Shown: in pieces, positions 21,661 to 63,321 of the stretch | Numbering within the stretch: the first letter of the stretch is position 1 | Layout of the letters: every line of letters starts with the position of its first letter | Origin: Utricularia gibba | Lineage: Eukaryota; Streptophyta; Magnoliopsida; Lamiales; Lentibulariaceae | NCBI GenBank assembly: GCA_002189035.1 | Contig: NEEC01000007.1 | Span: 1,364,001 to 1,428,000 of the forward strand | Direction: 5' to 3' | Length of the DNA: 64,000 nt | Program-made: the position numbers and the translations under genes | The notes under the pieces: model-generated | What the model was told of the DNA's origin: nothing | Databases searched by the model: none | What the model saw: only the letters and a program-made list of their open reading frames with translations

Positions 21661-22958
21661 ATGTCTGGAATGGCCCTCCAAGATAATGCTGCGGTTTCTA
21701 TGCCTGATACGATGAATGGAAGTGCCAACAAGTGTAATCTTATCCATGTGCAGACTACAAAGGTAAAAGTAAATTCTGATGGAGGAGAAAGGAATGGAAT
21801 TCCTGTGATTGCGAGTACTCTAATGAAACTAGAAGGAACTGAAAATTTGGAACCTGCTGTGGTGACCACTGAGATTGAGTACATTGAATCCGAGGACTTG
21901 AAGGACGTGAAAGATGTGGACAGTTGCGTCAAGGTACTATTTCTTTTGTTTCTGACTTCATTTGATTGTGACACTTGGTAACCAGAGTTCTCAAAAGAAA
22001 TTCACTCTGTTTATCAGTCAATGTTTGTCGAGCTTGATTCAAAAGATTGGGTCTCTGTGTGCCATGCACTCAACAATTTACGTAGATTGTCATTGTTTCA
22101 TGAAGAATCAATTATTAGCAAATTGTAAGTATTATCCTTATGTACTTTATAATGTTAAATGTGCTCATTGTTTAGTTCTGATATCGTGGTTTCTTTAACA
22201 GGAGTGATATTGTCCCTTTAGTTGTGAAATCTGTAAAAAATCCAAGAAGTACTGTATGCAAAACTGCAATTATGGCTTCTGAAGACATGTTCCGTGCTTA
22301 CAAGGATGGCCTCATTGATTCTCTTGACGCTTTGGTACTAGCATTTCACCTTGCTCTTGCCCCCCCTTTTTTTATTATCTCCCATTGTTTCCATGACATT
22401 TATATTGTCCTTTCGCAGCTCGTGCAGCTTCTTCTAAAATCTTCACAGGACAAGAAATTTGTATGTGAGGCAGCTGATAGTGCATTGGTGACCCTGACGA
22501 GCTCCGTCTCACCCCTTCTGCTGTTGCCCAAGTTACAAACTTACATAAGGGACAGAAATCCTCGCATCCGTGCTAAGGCTTCCTCATGTATCTCTCGAAG
22601 TGTACCCGGCTGGTAAGAGGCTCTTGTTCCCATTTCAATGACTAGGATGCAGATGAATGAGCCCATTCATGTGGCGAGTTTTCTATTGTTTCAGGGTGAC
22701 GATGGAATTAACACATTTGGCATACAGAAACTGATACAAGTCGGTGCTTCTCAGCTATGCGATCAGCTCCCTGAATCCAGAGAGGCAGCTCGTGCATTGT
22801 TGCTTGAATTGCAAGCTGCTTATGAACGATCCCATGTTGCCGAAACAACTCTCTCTTGGAAGCATTTTTGTGAATCAGAGCTTTCATCATTGAGTGCCCA
22901 AGCAGTCCTTCGGGCTACAGGCATCTCCAAGGAAGTGGTTGGTATTGATTCTGCATAA
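21661..22958 (+). CDS. TOG/HEAT-repeat (TOGARAM/CLASP-like) protein, reading frame broken once
   Basis: Five exons (21661-21933, 21988-22124, 22202-22334, 22419-22612, 22695-22958) encode about 333 residues of alpha-helical ARM/HEAT repeats. Landmarks are ELDSKDWVSVCHALNNLRRL, IVPLVVKSVKNPRSTVCKTA, LLLKSSQDKKFVCEAAD, RDRNPRIRAKAS and LPESREAARALLLELQ, typical of TOG domains that bind tubulin or organise cortical microtubules. Arabidopsis has a small ARM-repeat family of this kind. The first 90 residues are a polar, non-repeat N-terminus. The exon sum is 1001, one short of a multiple of three. The phase fails only across the fourth intron, where the family-like reading RSVPRLGDDGI needs one more base near 22604-22609. 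Apart from that the gene looks intact. Confidence 0.8.
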
Positions 22959-23295
22959 CATCAGCGCTCACTGTTCACTGGGAATTTAGACATCTGTTAT
23001 ATTGCTTCATCTCAATGGTTCGTACATGTAAATACCTCGCGAGCATGGAGATTCTTGAAGGTTTTGATCAACAATTCTATCCCTTTCTTTTGACTCCTGG
23101 AGCAGGGTACATCCATCGGTTTCATGACTACTATGCCAACAGGGAACATGAACTGGGGCCGAGACAGACATCGGCATTATACAGAGAAAGTATTGCATTG
23201 AAATTCCACATGTTACACCAGTGCAGCTTCCATTCCAAGAGCATGAAGATGGCGGACTGAAGTCATAAAGGCAATGCATACAGACAAGGTGAATC

Positions 23296-61200: not shown

Positions 61201-63321
61201 GGAGAATAAAAAAAAACAGAATATAGAAGCAAAAATAAATTTTAAGAAATCAAATTGATAAGAATGCAAAAAATACAGGTCAACTTCCATTTATAATACT
61301 GGAATAGAGAAATATTATCATTAATATGAATCAGTATATCCTAAAGAACATAACATACGAGTTTATGCAGCAAATCTGGCTGTTCTTCAAAGAGGTCGGG
61401 CAAATGCTTTCTCATAGCTGCCTCCAGTTTCACAGCACCTGATGCAGGAACGCCATACCACATTTTTGGAGCACCCCAGTGCATATAATTCAATGAATAC
61501 AAGTGATGATCTTCAACGTGCTGTCAACAGACAATTCTTTGTCAGCCACTGAATATAATAAAAAAATGAAGTACAAAATCGCATTCATATGTGCCAGAAA
61601 TTATATGCTTACCCAACAAAATGAAGAAAAGCACATTCCAATATACAACCAAGGTACAAGGACACCAGATATATCACTGCTTTCATAGGACAAGACAGAC
61701 CCAGGAAGCCTTGGAAAGTTATTCAAGTTCCACCCAGAGTTGATATAGTGGGCCTCAGAAGTTGAACAAACTTCTTGTCCCTTCTTGGGGAAGCCACTTC
61801 CAAATGATCCAGTTTCTATATCAGCACCATAAAGAACCTAAAAGAGAAGAAAGATAACAATTGAACCCTATATATTCCTGAACAACATGACCCTTGGGAA
61901 ACAAGAAATTAAAACTTGTTAGAGCTTCTACACTACCTCAATTTCATGAGTTGGTTTCTCTACGATCCTCCAGTATTCTCCCTCAATTTCCTCCAAAGAC
62001 GGTCTCCAGTGCTCAGGCATTTCATTGTTAGATATCAAGTCTATATCATTAAGCTCTCTTCCGAAGTAATGCTTCATGAAATAATCAGCATACTCTTGAA
62101 ATGCATTCAAAGTAAAGTCTGGACCCGGTTCAAAACCAAATATTTCGGTCTCACAAACTTCACTTTCACCTGAAGAATGAGTTTCCTCATTACTGTCATC
62201 TTCGGTTTTCATGCCTCTTCTCCTTTTCCTCTTCTTGGCATAATTGACATGCAACATATTTTTCATTGAGCTCCGGATCTGCAGCTTGTCAATTTGCTGA
62301 ACGCGAGTGGTAAACTTTGAGCCCTCCCACACATCTTTCTCCTTCAAAGGGCAAGGTGGTTTCCAAGAAGGAGGGGTACAATGCGGCAAATTCCATATTT
62401 TTCTGCCTTCGCTCTTATACTTGATATATATGCTAAAGTGTCTTCAAACTCCTGCTAGTGAAGACAGAACAGCTAAACTAGGCTTCATAAAATAATATAC
62501 AACAGAGAGCACATTGCACGGAATTGAAACAAAAAGACAAAAAAATAATCATCTGAAGTCACTGCATTAGAAACGCTGAAATAATCCAGTGGAATTTGCT
62601 GACGAAACCTTTTCAGAAGGATAAAAAACAGGCGCCTCCTCGAGATCTGGCCTCCAAGCATCTTTAGGATCCCATTTTGCAATCACCTGTTTCATGGTTC
62701 GAATGCATAACTTAATAGTAGCATTGATATTATCCCAGTGAGTTTGGAAACCTGACTGCTTGACAGAGGTACAATAAAGAGCAAACGATTATGGAAAAAT
62801 CCAATTTCTATTTGGGAACATCCCATCAAAGTCACTGAGCACGTAATAAAGAAGAGTTCCAAGGGCATACCTTTTGACAGTTTCTACAATCTTGACATCC
62901 CCGGACAATCCCTTTGGGAAGCTTATTCATGGAAAGAGTAATCTGCTAGTACAAAAAATTCACATGTATACCGTGGGAGCACAAAAAAACATGGAAATTT
63001 CAAGTGGCAGCACATTCAACTAGCTAAACTTGCCAACCTGATCAGACTCATATTCATCGCCAGAACTGTAATTACATTGACTAAGTTTTATGCCCCGGTG
63101 ACTTCTAATACGCTTCAAGATTTGTGAGCCATGATTCAAGTCAACCGCTGTCTCCATCTTGAATGGTTGTGATTCAACAGCATCGGCTAAGCGTGAATTA
63201 CTAACTTGATAATCCTCTGCATTCTTGAGAGTTATGGGCACAATTGATTCAAAACCAGGGGAATCAGTGGAGCTTCTATGCAATCCTCCTTGATAAAAGA
63301 CCCAACAAGTTCTGTGCCCAT
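58245..63321 (-). CDS. JmjC histone H3K4 demethylase (JMJ14/15/18-type, KDM5 group), three frame breaks
   Basis: Eleven coding exons: 63321-63038, 62942-62871, 62686-62609, 62451-61937, 61837-61613, 61520-61359, 61129-60761, 60532-59176, 59097-58994, 58868-58671, 58540-58245. Mended length is about 1220 residues. Order: MGTEL start, JmjN ([17 protein letters not shown]), JmjC with Fe-binding HVEDHHLY and a later His in [10 protein letters not shown]5HC2 zinc finger (ECSVCSFDL to [14 protein letters not shown]), a long disordered linker, then FYRN/FYRC ([29 protein letters not shown]). Such enzymes remove H3K4 methyl marks and control flowering and gene silencing. Three frame breaks, at 63258-63261, 62373-62376 and 58385-58389, are each mended by one more base in a homopolymer; the last restores a family-like tail ([17 protein letters not shown]). 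Splice sites and all other sequence are intact. Confidence 0.9.
58927..58939. repeat. G13 homopolymer in a JMJ intron
   Basis: Thirteen consecutive G on the plus strand (C13 in the transcript), inside the intron between the FYRN and FYRC exons (58993-58869). Such a run is hard to sequence, so its length may be wrong. Confidence 0.85.

Follow-up and report, generated by a model that had tools for sequence, protein, structure and literature searches.

The window, the whole 64,000-nt stretch analysed here (G000:C213:1364001–1428000), belongs to a genome assembly of 100.1 Mb in 516 contigs, whose genes clearly mark it as that of a plant. It is homeologous to C244:2912001–2990000, with gene order kept and ~68–85% nucleotide identity in matched blocks. 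Searches with window DNA matched only its own locus and diverged copies, and no second consensus of the searched loci was found in this assembly. Contigs C1, C2, C409, and C505 measure 8500000, 6192500, 2492500, and 3452500 bases; each length is divisible by 2500, which suggests that contigs were cut or trimmed in fixed steps. Four genes in the window carry breaks of the reading frame, one each in the HEAT/CLASP-like, VARLMGL/DUF4378, and ascorbate peroxidase genes and three in the JMJ14-like gene:

21661–22957, plus strand: HEAT/CLASP_N-like gene, five exons, one break (Pfam CLASP_N, E 1.4e-7; C244 homeolog)
22605–22607, plus strand: break 1, CCC, one base short of the homeolog; codon CCN
27290–30050, outer limits approximate, minus strand: VARLMGL/DUF4378 (TRM/LONGIFOLIA-like) gene, one break (Pfam)
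29141–29159, minus strand: break 2, one-base loss within these 19 bases (open-frame limits)
39752–41932, plus strand: peroxisomal-type ascorbate peroxidase gene with a C-terminal membrane tail, one break (Pfam, PDB relatives)
40578–40580, plus strand: break 3, one-base loss at CCC, after DSPLS (frame shift; PDB relatives)
58241–63330, minus strand: JMJ14-like histone demethylase gene, three breaks (Pfam; JMJ14 structure 5ykn)
58385–58389, minus strand: break 4, last exon, one-base loss at A5, which is T5 on the plus strand (frame reading; tail of the C413 paralog)
62373–62376, minus strand: break 5, JmjN exon, C4 in gene sense, C5 in the homeolog (C244 alignment; JMJ14)
63258–63261, minus strand: break 6, first coding exon, C4 in gene sense, C5 in the homeolog (C244 alignment)

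An earlier note, made from the letters of the window, had reported six breaks, each a loss of one base. All six are present in the given sequence, a few bases at most from where that note had put them, and the frame steps by −1 at 6/6. The C244 homeolog or solved relatives locate four of the six. At 22605–22607, 62373–62376, and 63258–63261 the C244 homeolog has exactly one base more, in coding sequence and with no other frame-changing gaps nearby. Break 1 lies in the last codons of its exon, 4 bases upstream of the exon end; here the window reads CCC followed by G and the homeolog CCTCG, and the surrounding splice borders are identical in the two copies. The note had held that an extra C or A restores the frame, but at 22605 the missing base need not be C because it falls at a third codon position (CCN). 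At break 3, Pfam peroxidase matches lie on either side, and in alignments with ascorbate peroxidases of solved structure a single residue position separates the two flanks.

The VARLMGL/DUF4378 gene matches Pfam VARLMGL (2.6e-5) and DUF4378 (2.4e-28). A search for a paralog across the genome found none, so break 2 has no paralog to place it, and neither 27290–30050 nor 39752–41932 (the ascorbate peroxidase gene) has a counterpart in the homeologous C244 stretch. In gene sense the break 2 stretch is CGTATCAAGGACATCTGTA, in which the longest runs, AA and GG, are 2 bases.

The JMJ14-like gene contains JmjN, JmjC, zf-C5HC2, FYRN, and FYRC domains (Pfam) and matches the Arabidopsis JMJ14 structure 5ykn at E 2e-168. 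Both flanks of break 5 match this structure, again with one residue position between. Beyond break 4 the other frame stays open for more than 30 codons until its stop, and a third JMJ copy, on C413, encodes a similar tail. This C413 copy has an apparent −1 change of its own in the C-terminal tail (last exon, ~L018:8600–8900), where KKANH is followed by LGNLYKLLFNNSTDD in another frame. On C244, the threonine aldolase gene and the JMJ homeolog are only about 570 bases apart (G000:C244:2978516–2979084); this gap contains no match to the FYRN/FYRC exons of the window (58241–59250), and the C244 homeolog thus seems to have lost the C-terminal domains. A run of 13 G occupies 58927–58939 of the window, in a JMJ intron; therefore, truncation of long G runs is not a simple rule in this assembly.

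As a genome-wide control, we took conserved families whose profile hits overlap and are collinear, and from these hits collected frame changes that leave no room for an intron. P450 genes were left out, as only the best candidates had been scored and the second halves of broken genes were missing. The unambiguous junctions are:

C451, C496, and C255 (two): HSP70 (base-level reading)
C451 and C255 (two): HSP90 (coordinates only)
C505 (two): callose synthase, distances 833 and 380, both 2 mod 3 (coordinates only)
C1 at 8287632: actin, distance 554 (coordinates only)
C411 at about 760630: PEP carboxylase, distance 380 (coordinates only)

All 11 are −1 and none is +1, although a −1 read from coordinates alone could also be a two-base gain; base-level alignment rules out such a gain at window sites 1, 5, and 6 and in the HSP70 cases. 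Together, the clear breaks of the window and the control are −1 in 17/17 cases, which has a probability of 8e-6 under even odds of gain and loss. Less certain junctions are likewise −1 (HSP70 on C241/C304, HSP90 on C414, and callose synthase on C328). Intact sister copies exist for HSP70 (C98, C409, C4) and HSP90 (C321 and two on C1).

C241 (31 kb) and C304 at ~2235000–2239000 are near-duplicates with 99.5% identity that share the same HSP70 −1 break; they differ by 16 bases and by three one-base gaps, with the base missing in C304 each time. An identical break in two sequences that differ at 16 other bases means that some −1 breaks may be real, although this comparison is small and its outcome ambiguous.

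Among the cytosolic HSP70 (six copies) and HSP90 (five copies) genes, seven breaks fall in about 17.6 kb (summed hit lengths). The coding sample from the window, at least 13.5 kb, holds six breaks, a rate that resembles this value, but the true rate in the window is lower because the sample is weighted toward broken genes.

The earlier note had placed every break in a homopolymer. Five of the six lie at a run of at least 3 bases, but the break near 29152 is confined to 29141–29159, where no run exceeds 2. The four HSP70 breaks read at base level fall at C4, C3, C2, and G5. In a background sample of 15.1 kb of coding sequence, the share of junctions that touch any run of at least 3 is 21.5%, and the share that touch a G/C run of at least 3 is 6.7%. 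Against these values, the window sites touch such runs in 5/6 (P about 0.002) and 4/6 cases (P about 0.0003), and the window sites plus the four base-resolved HSP70 breaks in 8/10 (P about 1e-4) and 7/10 (P about 6e-7), all four P values erring somewhat on the generous side, since the position given to an indel is to some degree arbitrary. The invariant of the breaks is the loss of one base, not the homopolymer.

The six breaks are very probably a consensus artefact of a long-read-only assembly, a reading that draws on sequence comparison and is favored because the same one-base losses break essential HSP70, HSP90, actin, and PEP carboxylase genes across the assembly. The principal alternative, real and recent gene loss, supposes that redundant copies are decaying after duplication and that replication slippage in short runs produced true one-base deletions. 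Such loss would be tolerable, since the JMJ and HEAT genes have C244 homeologs and the JMJ gene also a C413 copy; slippage favors homopolymers, and one HSP70 break is common to two differing contigs (C241, C304). However, the clear breaks include no gain, and no nonsense change was noticed. The lesions in the four broken genes are −1 steps only, not the mixture expected of pseudogenisation, and no case among these genes contradicts the earlier note's claim that gains, nonsense changes, and splice damage are absent. Otherwise conserved housekeeping copies are broken as well, and no paralog was found that could replace the DUF4378 gene. Between window and C244 copies, dN/dS is 0.32 for JMJ (765 codons) and 0.25 for the HEAT gene (326 codons); the threonine aldolase gene, which has no break, gives 0.18. 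On either side of break 5 the values are 0.15 and 0.25, so constraint is strong on both. These values show that purifying selection acts on the homeologous pairs. Relaxed selection on the broken copies, with dN/dS near 1, is not seen, but the observed 0.25–0.32 is an average over the time since duplication and therefore speaks against decay of long standing but leaves room for a very recent loss. On balance, we consider gene loss unlikely. A variant in which the contractions are real and widespread, with a mutational bias to lose one base in short G/C runs that duplication tolerates or slippage decodes, is very improbable.

Wrong gene models, in which other splice borders restore the frames and no base is missing, could be suspected at break 1, which is so close to its exon end that a different donor might alter the phase. 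Yet neither a GT nor an AG lies one base away from the borders there, the homeolog shares these borders and has an additional base, and conserved residues flank breaks 3 and 5 inside one exon; this explanation is scarcely credible. Alternative splicing was rejected on the same borders and additional base of the homeolog. Equally hard to sustain is the idea that the contracted runs are real in the genome and are decoded by ribosomal frameshifting or transcript slippage. The uniform sign of the breaks and the precise resumption of frames downstream would suit it, but the sites share no slippery motif (C2, C3, C4, G5, A5, and one site without a run of at least 3), and close copies of a broken gene are continuous at the corresponding position. 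Programmed frameshifting was rejected on both counts, the motif not being shared and sister copies being unbroken at the same site. We know of no plant nuclear genome that decodes contracted runs in either way.

A consensus artefact would arise if consensus calling dropped one base at about one place per 2–4 kb, preferentially inside or adjacent to short G/C runs, and if no short-read polishing followed, so that dropped bases would stay lost. Watson and Warr reportedly described such residual indel errors in long-read-only assemblies in 2019. The assembly analysed here appears to be the PacBio/HGAP type of U. gibba, a species that was assembled by HGAP with a contig N50 of 3.4 Mb (PMC5793159). 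The earlier note had blamed under-called homopolymers in an unpolished long-read consensus. Under-called bases agree with the genome-wide −1 junctions and their similar rate, but one site has no homopolymer, and 'unpolished' is better put as 'apparently not short-read polished' because the HGAP pipeline includes Quiver polishing (PMC5793159). For a 23-Mb genome assembled from PacBio reads by HGAP, indel discrepancies fell from 11,093 to 401 on Illumina correction (PMC5964635); the 11,093, counted outside long homopolymers and TA repeats, correspond to about 1 per 2 kb. A literature search that left the assembly's own paper aside found no report of frameshift errors in the U. gibba long-read assembly.

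If bases were dropped in this manner, the reads would be expected to carry the missing base at these sites, and in the plant the affected genes are probably whole. Any one site may nevertheless be a true loss, and therefore no single gene is to be declared intact short of read evidence. Gene annotation or gene-loss counts based on this assembly would score many genes as broken that are intact; with one base lost in about every 2–4 kb of coding sequence, false frameshifts would affect a sizeable share of genes. If U. gibba is the source, this bias bears directly on the main question asked of the species, which serves in studies of how genomes shrink and lose genes. The breaks bring no new biology; their weight is practical and lies in gene-loss claims made from the assembly.

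Among known systems, the pattern resembles that of long-read-only assemblies with residual indels (HGAP/Quiver PacBio; PMC5964635, PMC12007338), with single-base losses concentrated in short runs at ~1 per 2–4 kb. As in those assemblies, the losses are spread across genes whatever their function, and false frameshifts result. In the AT-rich Plasmodium case long runs dominate, whereas the runs here are short (2–5 bases) and G/C-rich. The window also shares a feature with fractionation and pseudogenisation after whole-genome duplication, in that two broken genes belong to retained duplicate pairs, with the homeolog on C244. Unlike those processes, which leave mixed lesions and relaxed selection, the breaks here are all −1 and constraint persists.
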